A stretch of 64,000 nucleotides of DNA from Thunnus maccoyii (lineage: Eukaryota > Chordata > Actinopteri > Scombriformes > Scombridae): contig NC_056538.1 of NCBI RefSeq assembly GCF_910596095.1, forward strand, positions 11,774,001 through 11,838,000, written 5' to 3'. Each line of letters starts with the position of its first letter. Position 1 is the first letter of the stretch. Of this stretch, positions 1 through 63,900 are shown piece after piece. A model generated the notes under the pieces. The model did not search any database. It was not told the origin of the DNA and worked only from the letters and a program-made list of their open reading frames with translations. The position numbers and the translations under genes were made by a program.

Positions 1-830
1 GTTGAAATCAGACTTCACCATCAAGAATCCATCACTAGAATCAGCCTCCTGCTGGCCTGATTTAAAATATGTGCTCCTGTCAAACCACATGATTGAAAAC
101 ACAATTTAAACACATAAATCATTCACACAAGCAGAGGACACACAGTCTGTGTTTGATCCAGTGAAACAGCTGAACATCTTACCTGCTGTATCCAATGTGC
201 TGGCAGCTTGCTTTCCCCTTCTGGTCCGTCCAGCTGTGAGAACAAACATTCCTCCAGGTTTTAGTCTGAGACGTGTAAATCTGGAGCAGGAAACTGGAAC
301 CATGAAGCCTCACTGACAAAGCAAACGCAGACGATCACTTGACATTTTGCTACATGTGGAAAGTAGGTGAAGTCGGTGGGCAACTGGTGCAAAGACATGT
401 CAAGTAACACAAATAACTGACAACACATCTTTTTTCACAAACTCCAACCATTTTTTATAACAAACATGAAACTAACACTTCACATTTACATTATGTGGAA
501 CTACAAGGTAGCCATGAACAGCTGTGTGTGTAATGATTGAACAGAACAATGTTTATGTAATATCCTTCAATTTTAGATTTCTGAGAGTAAAGTCATATTA
601 TATCAATGTGTTACATTTAGCTGTAAAAGACTGTGCTTCATGAAAGTGGATGATGAGACTTCAGGATTTTCAGATGTGTTTTGTCATGTACTTTGGCCCT
701 GAATGAGGCTGTTTACCACAGTTAGCTTCATCCTGGCCTGCTGGACAATCCGTCACCCCGTCACACCACTGGGACTCCCACACACAGCCCCCATCGCCAC
801 ACTGCAGCCCGTGTATACAGGACGAGGAAA
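1..830 (-). CDS. Second copy of LDLRa and SRCR exons of the TMPRSS2-like gene
   Basis: Copies of the upstream exons lie at 717-830 (LDLRa), 183-312 (first SRCR exon) and 1-76 (second SRCR exon, cut by the window edge). They are identical to 2257-2370, 1723-1852 and 1541-1616. Splice sites are preserved, so a transcript reading through both copies would carry LDLRa-SRCR twice, separated by the chimeric exon with a second membrane helix. Confidence 0.8.
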
Positions 831-3443
831 CTGAGAGATAAGAGAGGACCTGGGTGTAAATATATATATATAGTTAAGTCTATATGTTTGTGTTCGAGGT
901 TCAGTAGGAATAAATCCTGCGCTCACAGTAATAACCGAGGAGGATTCCAGCCAGCAGCAAGAGGAGCAGCAGGCAGATCACAGCGGCCACAGTGAACTTC
1001 ACACACCTCTGTTTTACACCTGAGAGGACAACACACACACACACACTGTGACTGTAGGCCAGCTGGCCCCTGGAGGCCCTGCTGGAGTTCACCCCACTTC
1101 CACAATCTGTGAAGAAGATTGCTGTTAGAGATTTCACAGCTAGTGAGTTTTCACAAGCAGATGTCAAAGTGTTGCCGTGTTGAAATGGCATCTGTACACT
1201 AATGTGACCTTTTTGTTCTTGACAGACAACAAAATGATACATTGTGAATAACACAATGTGTCCATTTATACTAATATCTGATTTGTTTGGGGGGGGGGGG
1301 AACAGCTAAAATACATAAAATAAAACATAAACGTATTATTTTCAGATTACATAATGACATACCAGTACATCGCAATGTCACCACTCTGTTGTTGGGGCAG
1401 GTTTTACTGCAGACAGCGAAAAGAAGACATTTGAGATGGGATTAGGTTCATATTCATTTAATATTAGAGTCATTTCTGCTGGCTCAGTATTACCAGTTCA
1501 CTAACCTGAGGATCACTTGTTGCAATATGGGAGCCTCAGGGTTGAAATCAGACTTCACCATCAAGAATCCATCACTAGAATCAGCCTCCTGCTGGCCTGA
1601 TTTAAAATATGTGCTCCTGTCAAACCACATGATTGAAAACACAATTTAAACACATAAATCATTCACACAAGCAGAGGACACACAGTCTGTGTTTGATCCA
1701 GTGAAACAGCTGAACATCTTACCTGCTGTATCCAATGTGCTGGCAGCTTGCTTTCCCCTTCTGGTCCGTCCAGCTGTGAGAACAAACATTCCTCCAGGTT
1801 TTAGTCTGAGACGTGTAAATCTGGAGCAGGAAACTGGAACCATGAAGCCTCACTGACAAAGCAAACGCAGACGATCACTTGACATTTTGCTACATGTGGA
1901 AAGTAGGTGAAGTCGGTGGGCAACTGGTGCAAAGACATGTCAAGTAACACAAATAACTGACAACACATCTTTTTTCACAAACTCCAACCATTTTTTATAA
2001 CAAACATGAAACTAACACTTCACATTTACATTATGTGGAACTACAAGGTAGCCATGAACAGCTGTGTGTGTAATGATTGAACAGAACAATGTTTATGTAA
2101 TATCCTTCAATTTTAGATTTCTGAGAGTAAAGTCATATTATATCAATGTGTTACATTTAGCTGTAAAAGACTGTGCTTCATGAAAGTGGATGATGAGACT
2201 TCAGGATTTTCAGATGTGTTTTGTCATGTACTTTGGCCCTGAATGAGGCTGTTTACCACAGTTAGCTTCATCCTGGCCTGCTGGACAATCCGTCACCCCG
2301 TCACACCACTGGGACTCCCACACACAGCCCCCATCGCCACACTGCAGCCCGTGTATACAGGACGAGGAAACTGAGAGATAAGAGAGGACCTGGGTGTAAA
2401 TATATATATATAGTTAAGTCTATATGTTTGTGTTCGAGGTTCAGTAGGAATAAATCCTGCGCTCACAGTAATAACCGAGGAGGATTCCAGCCAGCAGCAA
2501 GAGGAGCAGCAGGCAGATCACAGCGGCCACAGTGAACTTCACACACCTCTGTTTTACACCTGAGAGGACAACACACACACACACACTGTGACTGTAGACC
2601 TGATTAGACTCAGCTTACACACTTTTAAAATGTGTTTAAATTGCACCGTTTAAATCTTATTCTAATTATATAAAAACATCTGTATTTTTGGCTTTTATTG
2701 TATACTGCAGTATTACACTAACAATTACATTAAAATACATACAATACTATGGATATATAATCATACAGTATATAGAACAATGGCCGTCCTTAATATGGAA
2801 AGTTTATCCACATTTTTACTGTATATTTGATTATATTTGGATTATCTGTTGTTAATTTATCTAAAAAGTTCTATACCTACCGACATTTAGTTATGAGTTT
2901 GTTGTTTTTTTTAACCCAAACAAAATGGTCAATTTTCATCTGGTACATCTATATAAACATAAAAATATACTGTATAATCTTACTATAACTGTAATTAATT
3001 AAACCTCTTGGTTTGTTAGTATTTTGCTATGATAATAAAAAGGAGACTGGGGTACCTTTGTGTTTGGGTATGGAGTGTGTGATCTCAGGTGGAGGCTTCG
3101 GGGCCTGATGGTGAACATACTGAGGCTTGACATCTGGTCTGCTGAGTGGAGGAAGTTTCCTCCTCTCACCGTCCTCATGAATGAAAGAAACACCTGAATC
3201 CAGATACTGAAGGTAAAGTGTATAAAGTCAGAATAAAACTTAATGATTGATGATTGAAATGAGATTGTCCTGCATTTCAAATACAAAATATTACACATTT
3301 TATTCACTTACATTTCTAAACTCTATTATTGGTACAATATTGATAGGAATTACTCTAATTATATGTATATTATTACTTTAAGAAGTTCTCTAAGAAAACA
3401 CAAAGATCATTTTAAAAGCAAAACTTACCGGATTGGTGGTCAT
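1..3443 (-). CDS. TMPRSS2-like type II transmembrane serine protease, 5-prime part (cut by window edge, internal duplication)
   Basis: This encodes the N-terminal, non-catalytic part of a membrane-anchored trypsin-type protease; the catalytic exons lie beyond base 1. Exons read on the minus strand: 3429-3443 (start, MTTNP), 3056-3206, 2467-2559 (membrane segment), 2257-2370 (LDL-receptor class A module), 1723-1852, 1506-1616 and 1363-1406 (SRCR module), then 1106 downward (zymogen linker, CGSGVNSSRASR). The order cytoplasmic tail of about 60 residues, leucine-rich membrane helix, LDLRa (WCDGVTDCPAGQDEANC), SRCR and linker is that of TMPRSS2, and the SRCR start (VRLHGSSFLLQIYTSQ) resembles TMPRSS2 more than TMPRSS3, 4 or 13. 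Splice phases agree across all joins. The gene is odd because the block holding the membrane, LDLRa and SRCR exons occurs twice. Family call is firm; the exact paralogue is likely but unproven. Confidence 0.8.
927..1106 (-). CDS. Chimeric exon at the duplication junction: zymogen linker fused in frame to membrane segment
   Basis: The acceptor before 1106 opens the linker exon (DCGSGVNSSRASR). Instead of continuing into the expected IVGG activation site, the frame runs GQLAYSHSVCVCVVLS straight into GVKQRCVKF and the leucine-rich membrane helix of the second copy, ending at the normal donor at 926. The fused segment is 180 nt, enters and leaves in phase 1 and has no stop. It is therefore splice-compatible with its neighbours on both sides. 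Whether it is transcribed, or is an artefact of assembly, cannot be told from sequence. Confidence 0.65.
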
Positions 3444-4858: not shown

Positions 4859-29426
<24,568 letters not shown>

Positions 29427-35700: not shown

Positions 35701-38700
35701 CACTCTTCGATAGCAGTGTTGGAGTAACACCAATGGATATCGATGAACCGTTGAATACGCCGCCCCCTCCGTCAGACAGCATGGCCCCTCAGGAGGTACT
35801 CGAGCCTGCCACAAAAGACAGTTTCCCCACCTCAACAGCACTCAGTGTATCAACCACAGATCCCTCATCGAGAGCTACTGCTGCAACAGATACAGCATCA
35901 ACCTCTAATGGAAACAAAAGACAGGACAGTAAACAAGCACAAGGATCGAAAGAGGGACCTGCTACAGCCCTGTCTTCAGTTCTGAGTAGTCAGCCTACTT
36001 TTGTGTCTTCTGTACAAGTTGAACCAAACAACACTCCAACAATGACTGCTGACCTGCCTCATATGTCTGTTTCAAGCAGTGGAGGAGAAACTCAACCAGT
36101 ATCTATTCTCTCTTTAACACCTGAATTTGCCTCCTCCACATTTACAGGTGCCACAGTTACAGCTGCATTTAACTTGCCCTCATCAGCTTCCACTGCTGCA
36201 CCTTTTGCAGCAACACTTGGTATACCCACATCTGCTTGTACCTCTACAACTCTTACAGCAACACCTGCCTCATCCACACATACTTCACCTCCATCCTCCT
36301 CCTCCTGTGCCCCAGTCACTGCAGCATCTGATCCAGTGATCACCAACCATAGTGCTCCAAGCAAGGCTGCAGGTGATTCCAGTAATATAGTTTCTTTAAA
36401 GATCATCATTAGTGATAACCAGGATGAAAATTCTGCCACTGACACAGCCTTGAATCAGGCAGTTTCTAGTATTTCTGGGGACAAGATACCTACGATCTAC
36501 CTTTCCTCTCCAGCTAAATCCCCCAGATGCCCTGGCACACCAAAAGCCAACTTGGACGAGACTGCACAGGCAGTTAGTGGCTTACAAAGCTCTGAGGCAC
36601 AGGCTAATCCTCTCAGCAGCAGTAAGGCTGGGGCAGTAGTTGCGTCTCCATTGACAGGGACTTCACAAGCCCAGCAAAGCTACATAATTCAACTACCCCT
36701 GGACGCCACTAACCCTACCCTCCAAGGAGCCACTGCCAGCTATTTCCTTGTGACTGAACCCCCGACTAATGATGCTCAAGCCAGACAGGTGCTAGTGCCT
36801 GCTGGTGTCTCAAAGGGACAGCCTTTTCACACAAGCAGCCAGTATGGTGTGACCACACCGAATCGCTCTAAAGGCTACCCCACTGGTAAGAGACAACAGG
36901 CGACAACAGTGGGTCATTGTAATAGACATTGATCTCACTCTAGTATCACTGGCTGTGCTATTGTAACTGTGACTGTTGATGTAAATTTTGTTATTTTTGT
37001 ATGGGTTTGTGGTGTTCTTAAGCTCACTTTGCTCTAAACTCACTGTCGAGGGGCCGTTTTTCCCCTTCATGCAATATAGGCTTGATAAAATACAAAGTGC
37101 TGCTTTTGCCCCAATTGTAAACAGGTGATAATCCGAAGTACTCTACCTTGAAGTTGTCCACCATGTGTGTTGACATGAACATGTAGTTTTGCGGTTTGCA
37201 GTGGGGAAAAAAATCTAAATATTGAAACCTTTTAGTCATTATTGCCTGACATTGACCAGTCAGGTCAGGTTATATCGATAGACAAAATGAATAATTCTTT
37301 ATGGTTTATCTCTTGCAACTGGTACAATACAATGTATTGAGGTAAATGAAAATTTCATTCGACCTCCCCAAACTAACATTTCAAGGACATTTTTATTGCA
37401 TCTCCATTGTTGCATTTCTGTTGACAAATTACAGAAACACTAAATCTATTTATTTTGTATTTGCAAGACTGAACAATGACATTTTCAAGAGTGGAAGTAG
37501 TGCATGTATTTCCCTTTACTTACAGACAGTGCTACTTTATCAATTCTAAATAAATAAATGTAAAATGTTGAAGGCAATAACATTCAAACACATTTTAACA
37601 TTAGCAAAAAACATTACCTTTGGGCAACAGATGCCCACCAGGTTTATACGTGATGCACTTTGGAGCTGCGTACTTCCCCTATCGTGTGTTGTCCCTGTCT
37701 TTCTTGTCCGTTGCCTACAATCTGTCAAGCCTATTACTTCTATCTTTAATAATATTGGTATTATTACAAAAACAAATGTGGTGTTCTTTACTTGCAGGGT
37801 CACCACTCATCTTACCATCACCCATTAAGCCCATGATGCTTCCTGTGTCTGTTATGGGGCAGAACACTCTGTCGAAGGTCCAAATGGTGTCCAATCAGGT
37901 AACATAACTTAATCTGCAGTTCGTAAATTGGGAGTCAAAAGGTATCGCCATTGTCAGCAGGAGAATAGAACAATCATCCCTAATCATTCTGGTGACCCTC
38001 CAACCTTTTATCCACCATTCTGCCCCTTGGAGGAAATATCTCTTTGACCAACATTTTTTTTTTTTTGTATTTTTGTATCTTGGAGTCTAACAGGCTGCTT
38101 TCAATTAATTTTACTCACGTTCATGCTCTCTTAAGGATAACCCAATTTCTGTTTTTGGACTACTTTGTGAGCTTGCTTCTATGGCCACCCTCAGTTCAAA
38201 TTGTCACCTTTATGAATTTTGGTTCCCAAAGCACTAATAAATATTGTTGTATTTACAGCTTGTTGCAATACCAAAACCAGTGTCGGTACAGCAGCCTGAA
38301 ACTGTCAAGCCCAAACCTTCCACAGTGGCGGTCAAACAGTCTACAGCTGGTGGTAAGTTAACTTTGAGCAATGCTCCCTGCCTGCTAGAGGTATTTGATG
38401 CTTAAAATGGCTGAAACCTCCTCAAACGTATCCTTGACTTATGTTACCAAATGGTTTCTAAGTGTTACTCTATTTAATAGTTATTTCTCTGACTTAATTT
38501 CTCTTAATTCCAGGTGCTGAGCAAAATCTTGTTGGTAAGGTGATTCAACCCTTGTCGGCAGAAAACACAGGCCAGCAGACTTTGCTAAGGGGCGCCAGTC
38601 CTAGTCATAGGAGAATTTTATGTTTTGAGTCTTCTGCAGAAGTTCAACTACAGGCTGCTAAAACAACAAGGAACACCACACCCCCAGCTGTAAATACATC

Positions 38701-40844
38701 CACATCACAATCTGTCACACAGACTGAAAAAGATACTTCAGAGACGGGCCCTAGAACAAAGCCTACTATCCTGGGTGGTAACAAGCCCAAAAGGAGGGTC
38801 CAGACTGTCCGATGCTCAGCAGATCCTCAGACTGGAGTAGGGTTGGTAAAAGAGACAGAAAAGTCCATGCTTCCACAACAGCAACACAAAGATCCTACGA
38901 AAAAGAACTCTTGCAAACAAGATCATAACATCCATAACCAAGAACCTGATACTGCAACAACCAGCAGGGTTGATGCCTCAAAGCCTGAGTCTTTGAAAAA
39001 GTCAGAATCAGGAAGGAGATCAAAATCTATCGACAGGAAACACAATCATGATAAGAATAATGATGAAGCAAAATCTAAGGATTCTCATAGCTCTAGGTCA
39101 TCGTCCTCTGATTCTGCACTGAAATCAGGAAGTAGTAAAGACAAAGATGAGAGCAGCAGGAAAGAACCTGCAGAAAAAGGTCCTGCTAAATCACGTGAGG
39201 GGCGTACAGAGAAGAGGACTCCCTCTCAGGAGATGCCAAATGTGATGGCTAACAAGGAAAATGAAATGAAGGGTAGCTTACAAGAGCAACAACAGTCAAC
39301 ACCTTCCTCCTCAGCACCAAGAGACTTTAGCCCTTCAGCTGTCACCCAGACTGCATCCAATCCCCAGTCTAAGGCTGCAAAAGCTCCCTCAAAGACCAGC
39401 TCTCTGGCCAAACAGGCAGCCGAGATGCTGCAGGGCATTCAGGGGCTCAACTCTCCTTCAACCCCAGTTAAGAGACCAGGAGTCAGTGGTACAGACCTTA
39501 CTCTTCCTCGGACCCCGGCGACAGGCCGGAACCAGGAGGAGTCCATTGACTGTTCCAGGACTCCTTCCCGACAGAAAATGGGTAAAGATGGAGAGGGAAC
39601 ACCCAAGAATACCATGCCTCCCAACACCCCAGATGTCCCCAGCTGCAGCCCTGCCAGTGAGGCTGGCAGTGAAAACTGCATTAATATGGCTGCTCACACA
39701 CTAATGATCCTCTCACGTGCTGCCATTGCCAGGACAGGCACTCCACTAAAGGACAGTTTGCGTCAGGAGGGAGTAGGTGAAAAGTCTCCCACAAGCTTAA
39801 AGAACTCTAAGAAGCGCAAGCAGTCTTCTCCCACAGCCAGCCCTCCTTCAAAGAAGGACTCAAAACAGTCCCCTGGCAAGAAGAAAGACCGGGTGAGTCA
39901 GGTATTTGCTATTCATTAGATGTGTTTAAAATGCTTTAAAGGTTTCTTAAAAGGTCCCTGTTTTGAATGGCACTGCTTCAACTGCAGGCTTTTTTCAGAT
40001 GCACTTCGTCTCTAAGATTACTTGCCGGTCTAGCTGACATCATCAGCAAACATTACTAACTCCCACAACTCTACAAAGACTACCAACATGCTCTAACTCT
40101 TGATGTCTTTAGTACTTTAGTTTGATATCATGGCATGTGAACATGGTAATGTTCTAAGGCTAAAGCACAGCCATTGCTTAGCTGATATAGCAGCTAAAGC
40201 CTACAAAGGACAGCTGAACCTGGCTAAGTTTAACTGAATTTCATCTATGTTGTAACCTGACAAATGCAGCTCAGACGGAACATTGAGCTGAGTCAGTGAT
40301 TGGAAAGACTAAATTGCCTGTAGGTGTGTCTGTGTGCCTGTGTTAGCCAATAGACAACCTAACAGCCCAGTCCCCCCCTCAATAGAGAATCAGCAGTTTA
40401 GAGAATGAATGATTTAGGTCACATTGCTTTTCTTTTGGCGCCACCCTCAGGCCAAACCTCACACTTGTCTAATTATAGTAAGGAACTCGGAATAGTGGCG
40501 GTGACCTCTAATTTACATCCATTCAGTTTTGTGTTCTGTTGAACAATTAGCATTATAACCAGATGGGGGCGCTAGAATAGCTGTATAGTTTGTCATGTAT
40601 GTGGGAATTTGATCAGCCTTTTGCTATCAGTCCAATTCATTCAACTTGTTAATGAAGTTGTTATGCATGTCTAATGAACAATTCAATTAAATGAAAAGGA
40701 AAATTTGATGTCTTTTTGCTTTTTTTCTGCATGTAATTCTGATTCTTTGTTTAAATTCTGCAGGAAAAGAAGAAACTTATAGATTGCTTTCCCCATGACT
40801 TGGACGTGGATAAGTTCCTCTCTTCACTTCACTACGATGAGTAA
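30394..40844 (+). CDS. npat: NPAT, histone locus coactivator (17 coding exons, complete)
   Basis: NPAT is the cyclin E-CDK2 substrate that nucleates histone locus bodies and activates replication-dependent histone genes in S phase. Exons: 30394-30430, 31206-31324, 31434-31494, 31601-31673, 31823-31863, 32425-32667, 33094-33169, 34055-34166, 34460-34551, 34692-34773, 34923-35019, 35150-35263, 35461-36885, 37798-37898, 38259-38352, 38514-39892, 40764-40844. The frame is open for 4,227 nt (1,408 aa; human 1,427). The N-terminus carries a LisH motif (VARLVLGYLQEEGLSDTSQ), needed for self-association. Other matches to human NPAT: EIHMSDDAIHDILEQTES, NIVSLKIIISD, SHRRILCF, NMAAHTLMILSRAAIAR, and the end DVDKFLSSLHYDE. 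The donor of exon 5 is a tandem GTAGTAAGT, allowing one extra residue either way. Confidence 0.97.
30515..31190. mobile_element. Palindromic fold-back element in NPAT intron 1
   Basis: The left arm (about 30585-30745: TAATCATTCCTGCTGTTCAT, GATGGGGGACAAAATCCAC) is inverted in the right arm (about 31045-31190: GATTTTGTCCCCCATCA, GAGCAGGAGGAATGATTAC). The arms match imperfectly over roughly 150 bp and the element spans most of the intron. There is no coding capacity. It resembles a long palindromic repeat common in teleosts. Confidence 0.65.
32690..32722. repeat. (TA)n(CA)n microsatellite in an NPAT intron
   Basis: A short compound tract of TA repeats changes into CA repeats, 23 bp after the NPAT exon ending at 32667. 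Confidence 0.85.
35461..36885 (+). CDS. npat: NPAT large exon 13 (Ser/Thr/Pro/Ala-rich activation region)
   Basis: This 1,425-nt exon encodes a low-complexity, Ser/Thr/Ala-rich segment of about 475 residues, typical of the poorly conserved middle of NPAT that is involved in transactivation. A single conserved island stands out near 36,380-36,540: NIVSLKIIISDNQDE followed by IPTIYLSSPAKSP, matching the human VSLKVIISDD and ILSSPTKSP segments. The acceptor is the CAG ending at 35460, and the donor is the GTAAGA at 36886. Confidence 0.92.
36886..37797 (+). other. NPAT intron 13, no feature recognised
   Basis: These 912 bp lie between the two NPAT exons ending at 36885 and starting at 37798. The sequence is AT-rich and I see no exon, RNA or repeat in it. 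Confidence 0.6.
38514..39892 (+). CDS. npat: NPAT large exon 16 (basic, CDK-site-bearing C-terminal region)
   Basis: This 1,379-nt exon encodes SHRRILCFESS near its start, a long Lys/Ser-rich stretch, and a strongly conserved block near the end: PRTPATGR, NTPDVPSCSPASEAGSEN, NMAAHTLMILSRAAIAR and TGTPLKDS. In human NPAT the equivalent TP sites are cyclin E-CDK2 targets, so the cell-cycle switch is likely kept. The basic tail KKRKQSSPTASPPSKK resembles a nuclear localisation signal. Confidence 0.92.
39893..40763 (+). other. NPAT last intron, no feature recognised
   Basis: These 871 bp lie between the CDK-site exon and the final exon. No repeat or RNA gene is apparent. Confidence 0.6.
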
Positions 40845-58770: not shown

Positions 58771-60923
58771 CTAGCACAGTTGACTGTAGCTGGAGATAAC
58801 TTGCTCTAGAGATGTAAAGTTGTCAAGGAAATCCTCCTCTGAGATCCCAAACTTAGTGTACTGATGGATATAAGCCCTGTAACGTTGGGGAAAACAGAGG
58901 AGAGTCAATTAAAACATGTTTTCAGCTTACTATTCTCATAAAGTTAAATTTGAACGTTCATATTCACTGACTGCTATATTTTGCATTATATTTTGCATAC
59001 TGAGTCAAAAGTGATCACTTATTTCTCCCTTTAACTTGAATGTCATCTATTAGTGCACTACACAAACTTCAGAATCTGCTTTTTACACAAATACGCTATT
59101 AAAAGGGTAATTTTCTTCTCATCTTTACAAAACACAGCTTTGTATACAGTAGACATTCTTATCTTAAAAGTAACATTTCATTGTCTTCTGACTGACTCAC
59201 CTGGAGGCAAACATATTCCAGGCTTTTCCCACCATGTTATCCAGCGGTTTGAGCAGAGCCTGACTGTTGCTGACCAGCGTAGCAGATTTTTCGTACTTAT
59301 TAAAAGGCACCGGGGATTTCCACAAGTTGAAAGCTTCTCCTGACGAGAGCCAGGAGGTGTAGAGGGCTGGGTCCTCAAAGCCGCCTGTAAGCAGAACACA
59401 ATTCACATCCTTTGATCTGCACAGTCTGAAAGCATTAAAATACATAAAATGGAAAAGTTGATACTTCTTTAAACCTTTTTCTGTGTTCCCTCAACTCAAC
59501 ATTTATCAGGTGAAATCAATAAAAGAATCAAAGCATGACTTCACCTAGTCAGTCCATTGATTCTTTTTATAAAATCAATACATTTCTGCCATCTGTCTGA
59601 CCTGTCTCTGCACTGTAGACGTCTTTGCCTCTCAGTATGAGCAGGTTGGCCAGAGAGGTGTTAAAACTGGGACCTGTGAGACTCCTGGTCCTCTCAGAGC
59701 CGGCAAGTGGACGCACCTGCCAGTCTATACCTGACAACAAACAACAATGATCCTCTAAAGCGTATCCAACAACTTAATAATTAACTTGCAATAGTATCCA
59801 GTTGAACGCATTGAAGTGAAACTGAACAGCAAATGAAAAACTTGCCTTCCTCCATCTTGGCGTTGGAGATGAGCATCTGTCGCAGGTGTTTGAGCAGACC
59901 TGGCCAGCTGAACGTGCTGTACGCTATGGAGGAACTGGGCATCTGAGGGATGGTACACACACTGAGCAGCTTGTACTCTGGGTGGCATACAAGAGCGCTC
60001 ACCAGCTCACCTGAGAGAAATCAAAAATGTCATCATAAAGGATAAGAAGTGCTGGCTTGTGATAGTGGTTTACAGTAAGCAATCGGAAATCATCTAATAA
60101 AATGTTCAACCGGACAGAACGTGGTAATTAAAACTGAAATATCTTAAAATGAATTTCCTTATTGTTATATTTTATCTAAGTAGCTTTTCCTTTATCTAGT
60201 TATTAGTTTTTTTTCCATAGTGTTTTTTAAATTTCATAATTTTGTCAGGATGATCTCAAAATAGATTATCATTCACAATAACAACAATAAACAATGAATG
60301 TGTCAAATTTAATTTCCTTTTTCACTTGAGATCTACAATTTTTGTTATTAAATGTATTTGTAAGGGACTGTGTAAAAAAAACACTGTAAAACATCACAAA
60401 TTACAATAACTACTAATTGAAAACAGAATAGATACTAACTGCTATGTACGATGAGTCTCATGGTCATATTTGTACAGTTAACATCATTTTTCTGATTAAT
60501 TGAACCATCTGGGTTCCAGATGTGTTAATGTGTGACACAAGCTACAAAATGCATTCTGCTTTTTTGCTGTCAAACAAACTATTTAAGAATTTACTATTTA
60601 CTTTGTTTAGGGAATGGCTGTTATTATCCCATAATATTCCAGGAAATCCAGCCCTGTGGGAAGCTGCCGTGTGTGTATGTGTAGTCCGTCATAGGCTACT
60701 TTTGGAGACAAATTTCAGACTTAGGACCAGTTAATTGGAGATGGTTTGTGCAACTGGTGACAAAAGCCATGTCCCCCATTTGGAAAAAGCTGATCTTTGG
60801 GTCAGTGGTTATTGTTTGAGTTTGGCAAGTAGTGATTATGGTTAGGGTTAGGGTTAGGTTAAGTCTCCAGGAAATGAATTCAAGTCTATGTAATGTCCCC
60901 AAAAGTGACCATGGCCTGATATA

Positions 60924-60966
<43 letters not shown>

Positions 60967-63900
60967 TGCCCTTTCTCACCCAGAGGATTTCTGCTGTAGA
61001 CTCCATGGGAGTCGGCAGTGAGTGCGGGCTGCAGGATGCCGCCCAGCTGCTGAGCGATAACCCTGTTGACGTCGCTGAAGGAGATTTGTTTGATGTTGAG
61101 CAGCTGACTGCAGATCCTGTGCACCGTGTCGTTCTCGTGCACCAGGATGGCGTCTGACAGCTGGTAGAGGTGTGCCAGCGTCAGCACAGAGTTGTAGTTC
61201 TGGACAATCACCTGAAAGCATGCAATTACATATAGACATTTCATTCATTACTGTATATTTGAGCAGGCTGCATATACTGCACATGACCACATCACTTTTT
61301 TTTAGCACTCCTTGCACTCTTAACACCTTTACGCTATTTGTATCCTGTTTATAGTTTCACATGTACATAGACGCTGTATGTTGTTGTCCACTTCTTCTTT
61401 TTATATTTATGTATCTATTTTTACACCCACTTGTTTGTACATAATAGTGATATGTTTATCATGTGGACAAAATCAAATATCACAATATATTTGACCAAAT
61501 ACCATTGCGACAATATGGTAGGGATGACTATTGGTGCTTTCACAAAACATTTACACAATGAGATTCTTGATAAATAATCTAGAACAGTCTTCACTTTACT
61601 ATAATGCAGCCTTTAAAACAGGAAAAGACAACACTTACACCATATCACAATATTATGATATCCAAAATCTAAGATGATATCTAGTCTCATATCACAATAT
61701 CGATATATTGCCCTGCCCCAATGTCTATGTTTAATTATTATATGTTGGGCTTGTTGTCCTTGTGTATCTCTCTGATGATTGTTGTGTGTAAGTAGATTGA
61801 GAGCCACTAAACCAGAGTCAAATTCCTTGTATGCATACACGTACTTGGCCAATAATGATGATTCTGATTCTGAAAGAACAGAATAAGAGAAAAAGCTAAT
61901 AGCAATGCTAACAAATAAGACAATAAGTCAATAGTTGAGCACACTGACAGCCGTCTCCATACCTCCCCAGTCCCGTACGGCCAGGTGAGGTGGTTGAGGA
62001 TGAAGGATTTGGGGTAAATGTCTCGGAGACACTGAGTAACATAGGTGCCAACTCCAGACCCCGTCCCCCCTGCTACACTCATCATGGCCATGAGCCCAGC
62101 CAGTCTGTCACAGCGCTCCACCTCTCGCCTCACCAACTCCTCCACCGCTTCCCTGTGACAAGGACCGTGGACGCAAAACCTAATGTGAGACAAGAAGCAC
62201 ATCACCAGATTAGTTTTTCACCCTTGACATTCATTTCTACACACAGGGTGATTGTTTTCTCGCATTTGTGTTGATGATCACATCTGTAAAAATATACACA
62301 AGGCTAACAATGTGATTACAAGTTACTTTTGACTTGATTTGAGCAGCTCATTCTTCAGATCGGAAATAGAAGTTTGACAAAATAATCCCAACTCAAGATC
62401 CACTTACTACTAAATACTAAATGTGATGCTGATCTTAAAGGCCAACACATACGATAAGTCCTAAAAGTGTCACTGATGAAATCATCTAACAGCTACTGAG
62501 CTCACATATCAACAGATTCATCTCCATGACAACTCAACAAATCCCACCTGCACATGAAGACGGTGTGATACAGCTGAAAGCTCCAGAAAAAACCTTGAGT
62601 TGGGATTGATTTGACGTGATGATTACAAAATGACATGATAGGGTTTGATTGACAATGTTTATCATTACTATAACAACAGCAGTCTGATCAGTAAACAGTG
62701 GATAAAGAGCCAGTAGTGGAGGAAACTGGGTCTGCACCTAACAAATATTTCATTATTAATTAATCTATTGATTATTTTCTAATCTATTAGTTGTTTGATC
62801 CATAAAATGTCATAACATGGTGACATTTTACAAATTTGAGAAGCTGGAATCAGAGAATTTTGCCTTTTTTTTTTCTTTTTTTTTTTTTTTTTACAAAATC
62901 AGAATTATTAATCAATTACCAAAATAGTCGTCAATCAATTTAATTGTTGGAAACGAAACAATTAATCAACTAATCATTGCAGCTCTAGAGGAAATAGTAA
63001 GGAAATATTTCCACTATTCTACAGAAACAGAGGAAGGAATGAAAGGTTTCCTTACCCATTAGCCCAGTTGTTTCCAGAGCCCTGCTTCTGGCTGAAGTAT
63101 GAAGTGTCTCCATACTTCCACCTGCCAGACTTTGCAGCCTTGGTTAAACTCTGGTTGATGACTTTGGGCTCCATGTCTATCAGCACTGCCCTCGCCACAA
63201 GCTCTGGTTAAAAGAGAAAAATATATGACAGTAGAATGTAAGAGATGACTTTCGAGCTAAACATCAGTCTGGTACACTAAACTGGACAAACTCCACAGTC
63301 TTTATGTGTGGCTGGATGTGTGATATTGATGCACAGTTTGTTAAATGCTTTCATCATGGTGGTACTATCCCATCTAATTGTCCAGACCATGTCTGTACAT
63401 GTTGTGTTCGGTGTTATTCCTCTTGGGTGGGAGAGAAAACTTGATAAATTTAATTTTTTTTAAAAAGATGACTTTCATTATCAATTATTTATTAGATAAT
63501 TTGAATAGCTGTTCAGTCTATAAAAAAACAAGCGAATACTGAGAAATGCACATTGTGATTTTCATTGCTTGTTTTGTCCAACTTATAATTATATTAAACA
63601 GAGAAAAGCAGCACATGCTCACATTTGAACAGCTGGAAACTTATGAACCAGTGTCATTTTGCTTGAGAAATGGCTTTAACAATTAATTATCAAAAACCAA
63701 TTGATCCTCTATCAATCAACTAATCGTTTAGACTCCTAATAATTGACACATAAACACATGCACAGTATAGAAAGTCACAACACAATCCAGAGAGGGGAGT
63801 AGAGAAGAGGATCTCACCTCCCTGTGTAGTTTGATGGAAGAACCTCTCACAGCTGGCTGTACTGTACGTTTTCCTCTGCGGCTCCTGAGCATCACTGCAG

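Follow-up and report, generated by a model that had tools for sequence, protein, structure and literature searches.

The window analysed here is a stretch of 64 kb of the Thunnus maccoyii genome (C6:11774001-11838000, in an assembly of 782 Mb and 54 contigs), and its left edge cuts through a gene on the minus strand which, as judged from its predicted exons, is a TMPRSS2-like type II transmembrane serine protease. The analysis also took in L003, the adjoining 10 kb on the left, and negative positions denote bases to the left of the window start. A single-copy chain of 12 exons could be read from the DNA, complete and open, with GT/AG at the inner borders and 474 residues. Pfam recognized Trypsin, SRCR_2 and Ldl_recept_a in this chain, the last of these just over its threshold (24.4 bits vs. 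a cut-off of 24.1), residues 87-465 aligned with TMPRSS2 at an E-value of 1e-105, and a hydropathy profile placed one hydrophobic helix in exon 3. The TMPRSS2-like layout is complete, i.e., a cytoplasmic tail, one helix, LDLRa, SRCR and the trypsin domain. Within the gene, a unit made up of the entire exons 3-7 together with the initial 49 bp of exon 8 stands twice, head to tail and on the same strand, and the exon order would become 1-2-3-4-5-6-7-(8 cut)-3-4-5-6-7-8-...-12. The original prediction, made from the letters of the window, placed the repeat in a TMPRSS2-like gene and assigned to it the membrane-helix, LDLRa and SRCR exons, and the exon map, Pfam and hydropathy agreed with it; what it did not hold was that the unit also takes in 49 bp of a protease exon, the cut end of which is fused to the tail of intron 2.

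The same prediction had 1-1057 and 1541-2597 as a tandem duplication, and a script comparison bore this out, with 1,057 of 1,057 bases equal at an offset of 1540. At this offset 1,092/1,200 bases agreed, vs. 288-357/1,200 at the 19 neighbouring offsets (1530-1539 and 1541-1549). The pair was the sole direct-repeat family listed in the window by a repeat finder (seed 20, minimum length 40, simple runs left out), and a 40-mer sharing scan over distances of 100-20,000 bp found no second repeat pair of 200 bp or more in the surrounding 274 kb. An assembly-wide search with 1-1057, which is part of the unit, gave at least two matches, and those listed both lie at the C6 locus. Leftward, the match between the copies extends to window position -483, and the copies therefore abut at 1057/1058, so that the predicted unit length of 1,540 bp and the predicted junction both held in the added DNA. 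The whole unit comprises a copy A of 1,539 bp and a copy B of 1,540 bp, lengths in which the shared AG is counted once, its assignment to the end of copy A or the start of copy B being arbitrary. In a MAFFT alignment no substitution separated the copies at 1,539 aligned sites, and the only inner difference was a poly-G run, of 11 in copy A (-250..-240) and of 12 in copy B; gap columns occur otherwise only at the two terminal bases, AG, and stem from where the copies were cut. The repeat had been described as perfect, which is correct for substitutions and not for this run. The identity spans the unit to both edges, with introns and microsatellites included. The anatomy is as follows.

1056..1058, unstranded: junction of the copies, exon 8 joined to the tail of intron 2, with a 2-bp microhomology AG (1056-1057)
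1..1057, minus strand: in-window part of copy A, with the end of exon 6A, exons 5A, 4A and 3A and the tail of intron 2; it runs on to the left to about -483
1058..2597, minus strand: copy B, complete (1,540 bp), with partial exon 8, exons 7, 6, 5, 4 and 3 and the tail of intron 2
927..1106, minus strand: possible fusion exon, made of the exon 8 acceptor, 49 bp of exon 8, 38 bp of intron 2 and exon 3A, with the frame open throughout
1058..1106, minus strand: exon 8B, a truncated protease exon without its own donor
927..1019, minus strand: exon 3A, membrane helix
717..830, minus strand: exon 4A, LDLRa (domain called on the spliced chain)
183..312, minus strand: exon 5A, SRCR part 1 (domain called on the spliced chain)
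1..76, minus strand: exon 6A, SRCR part 2, truncated at the window edge (full extent -34..76)
2467..2559, minus strand: exon 3B, membrane helix
2257..2370, minus strand: exon 4B, LDLRa (domain called on the spliced chain)
1723..1852, minus strand: exon 5B, SRCR part 1 (domain called on the spliced chain)
1506..1616, minus strand: exon 6B, SRCR part 2
1363..1406, minus strand: exon 7B, SRCR part 3
3056..3206, minus strand: exon 2, cytoplasmic tail
3429..3443, minus strand: exon 1, with the proposed start MTTNP, suggested by the open frame and the donor
1289..1300, plus strand: run of 12 G (copy A has 11)
-595..-433: exon 8A, in the DNA left of the window
-2492..-2307: exon 12, in the DNA left of the window

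On one side the unit ends in exon 8, past the GQLA codons (because of the shared bases, this may be inside the Ala codon or next to it); on the other it ends in intron 2, at a distance of 11 bp from a (CA)8 tract. A microhomology of at least 2 bp has a computed chance of 0.156 in blunt joins, and the shared AG therefore carries no weight as proof of a duplication. Three stretches of 100 nt on the plus strand at the breakpoints were folded in search of hairpins and did no better than their shuffles (z of -0.20, -0.44 and 0.02), so that a structure-driven break is not claimed. The 12-bp palindrome GGCCAGCTGGCC at the junction was considered as filler and rejected, since identical letters are present in exon 8 of copy A and it is ordinary exon sequence. 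As to the origin, we infer that there would have been one break in exon 8 and a second in intron 2, with the ends joined by repair or by a replication slip via the 2-bp homology.

As a matter of judgement rather than calculation, we put it at somewhat better than even that the sequenced fish truly carries an intragenic tandem duplication of very recent origin, for which it may still be heterozygous. The direct abutment of the copies was counted in its favour, as were the lack of any substitution between them and the lack of a second repeat pair in the 40-mer scan. There are no N bases in the 274 kb around the locus, nor in the 10 kb to the left of the window, and gaps between copies are one mark of false duplication in a passage of Ko 2022 (PMC9516828); the relevant passage of Kelley and Salzberg 2010 (PMC2864568) has within-contig duplications as seldom being errors. 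A tandem array on contig C20, described below, also has a unit of 1.54 kb, and in the 6 kb of it that were read the mismatches between units are scattered (12 in 3,814 bp, 8 in 2,270 and 8 in 726), which suggests, without proving it, that the assembly kept repeats of about 1.54 kb apart.

Several points weigh against a real duplication. All of the evidence, including the C20 array brought in as support, is taken from the assembly, an unmerged overlap would give an equally near-perfect identity, and the one-base difference in the poly-G is as compatible with a read error in a homopolymer as it is with slippage. Gap closing can erase a run of N, and what are listed as 54 “contigs” may in fact be scaffolds. 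The microhomology is of the size that chance provides at the rate given above, and the second membrane helix that the duplication brings with it is expected to harm the protein. False duplication is, furthermore, among the most common assembly errors according to a passage of Rhie (PMC8081667), and heterotype errors predominate in older assemblies according to one of Ko (PMC9516828).

The strongest of the alternatives is a homotype assembly error, in which overlapping contig or read ends were left unmerged, one stretch was placed twice and any gap was then closed; the gene would be single-copy, with 12 exons and a protein of 474 residues. Such an error would account for copies that are identical except for one homopolymer base and for a single-copy exon chain that is complete and open, whereas the absence of N speaks against it only in so far as a closed gap would not have removed them. 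Homotype errors are about as long as reads in the part of Rhie that treats them (PMC8081667), and 1.54 kb is short for long reads, if such were used. We regard this explanation as possible, at roughly one chance in three. Alternatively, two alleles of one locus might have been laid side by side (a heterotype false duplication), and the one-base difference in the poly-G could indeed be allelic; the absence of substitutions was counted against this. Allelic single-nucleotide polymorphisms (SNPs) were looked for and none was found in 1,539 aligned bp, an outcome with a chance of 0.0005 at an assumed heterozygosity of 0.5% and of 0.01 at 0.3%, but of 0.21 at 0.1% and 0.46 at 0.05%, and on balance we consider this origin quite unlikely. 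Least credible is a duplication of greater age in which gene conversion, a common process between adjacent tandem copies, has prevented divergence; the edges would then be expected to differ, and the identity instead extends to either end of the unit, through introns and microsatellites.

If the duplication is real, the 0 substitutions in 1,539 sites put the 95% upper bound on its age at about 195,000 generations for an assumed rate of 5e-9 per site and generation, and at 97,000 to 975,000 generations for assumed rates of 1e-8 to 1e-9; the bound is void under gene conversion.

What such a gene could express was followed on the predicted exons. Exons 3-7 add up to 492 bp, which is divisible by three, phase 1 introns follow exons 2, 3, 4 and 7, and all four of the splice outcomes that were computed remain in frame and open to the end. 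Joining exon 2 to 3A gives the normal 474 residues, and joining 7B to 3A gives 638 residues with two helices. If 3A is skipped (7B to 4A), the product has 607 residues, one helix and a doubled LDLRa-SRCR, and if 7B is joined to the fusion exon, reading from 8B through 38 bp of intron into 3A, it has 667 residues and two helices. Under a simple rule that counts only complete internal exons, the frame survives in 849 of the 2,857 positions at which a segment of this kind can be placed in the single-copy gene, so that the in-frame result argues only weakly for a real duplication. With the frame kept, the second helix and second LDLRa-SRCR that had been predicted are a possible product; they are nevertheless one outcome among several, since skipping 3A adds LDLRa-SRCR without a helix and joining exon 2 to 3A restores the normal protein.

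In a type II protein the N-terminus is cytoplasmic, and a second helix is expected to flip the side of whatever follows it. The second helix would be expected to act as a stop-transfer sequence, so that the second LDLRa-SRCR and the protease would stay in the cytosol. A two-helix product would thus probably be useless, with its protease on the incorrect face of the membrane, an outcome that skipping 3A would avoid. The 607-residue and 474-residue outcomes would retain the correct topology.

The protease domain itself is unusual. Where TMPRSS2 has R-IVGG at the activation site, the alignment shows R-GQLA, three residues short and with IVG missing, and GDSGGP is replaced by TDSGSP and SGWG by SRFG. 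The catalytic His, Asp and Ser are kept (TAAHC, NDIAL and DSG aligned), with Thr in place of the Gly before DS; the top TMPRSS2 chain in this alignment is itself a Ser-to-Ala form. The host gene is likely to be protease-impaired, an open-frame pseudoprotease to judge from these motifs, and an impaired gene may be more tolerant of disruption. One further reading, which we consider a long shot, is that of a segregating allele in which 3A is skipped, with one helix, a doubled LDLRa-SRCR stem and an inactive protease domain, in a gene that would already have turned from a protease into a binding protein.

Paralogues were scanned for the same motifs at L025 and L032-L046, most of which yielded no hit. 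IVGG is present on C2 (L033), on C6 near 19.1 Mb (L036), on C13 (L045) and in three C20 exons (L046), a fourth C20 exon having REVGDSG at the activation site, and the C13 paralogue has both RIVGG and GDSGGP. The C20 array (C20:15935610-15952735, part of it in L046) comprises 12 trypsin-like exon matches, all with an E-value of 3.7e-9 and spaced at 1,542-1,544 bp, its units being 98.9-99.6% alike in the 6 kb read; it would be either one multi-protease gene of the polyserase type or an array of genes. Seven trypsin-like exon matches, five of them with the same E-value, lie at a spacing of 5.4-5.8 kb on C18 (C18:27536220-27569323).

Precedents exist for intragenic tandem exon duplication as well as for false exon gain; no report of this particular duplication was found among the records listed from the open-licence literature searched. 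In the passages on dmrt1 of Solea senegalensis (PMC7605655), a second exon II-III block is described, part of exon I being present at its junction, with complementary DNAs (cDNAs) that do and do not contain the block and isoforms with different exon combinations. That gene and the TMPRSS2-like unit share the fish host, the extra exon block and the partial exon at the join. They differ in that the dmrt1 introns have diverged (Pi 0.019, 0.187, 0.082) with exons II/II' identical, whereas the TMPRSS2-like copies are one base apart, and in that the TMPRSS2-like unit, unlike the block described for dmrt1, includes a membrane helix; the tuna duplication, if real, is far younger. On the side of error, a four-exon block that is false is described for GABRG2 where the earlier reference of the zebra finch is discussed (PMC8081667), and the false exon gains of this type (PMC8081667, PMC9516828) are likewise tandem blocks of some exons in one gene. 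As far as these passages go, dmrt1 is backed by bacterial artificial chromosome (BAC) and cDNA data and the false gains were judged with reads, gaps being among the marks, whereas the TMPRSS2-like locus shows no gap and is known from its assembled sequence. Human TMPRSS2 (structures e.g. 8s0n and 7meq) has the order LDLRa, SRCR, trypsin in common with the fish gene, which differs in having exons 3-7 doubled in the assembly, IVG missing and TDSGSP for GDSGGP.

Upstream of the TMPRSS2-like gene and on the same strand, the last exon of an ATM-like gene occupies window positions 4859-5040 (minus strand), with a FATC domain at 4862-5038 (Pfam E 5.7e-14); judging from the sequence of its tail, we take this to be ATM rather than another FATC kinase. 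An NPAT C-terminal domain lies at 38498-39919 on the plus strand (Pfam E 3.3e-38), and with the ATM-like gene on the opposite strand it presumably forms the head-to-head ATM-NPAT pair. At 60696-61244 on the minus strand an open reading frame matches tubulin weakly (E 0.00049, 20.9 bits vs. a cut-off of 33) and may be a delta-tubulin exon.

Whether real or false, the repeat means that the TMPRSS2-like gene model merits a flag in the meantime. If false, it is an error that shows no gap and would give the annotation a wrong model for this gene. If the duplication is real, a block of exons is seen duplicated before any substitution has separated the copies and with the junction in frame, so that the first step of a domain gain would be directly observable, by reverse transcription polymerase chain reaction (RT-PCR) and by population genotyping. 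And should the long shot of a segregating allele with 3A skipped be true, a new domain architecture would have been caught at birth.
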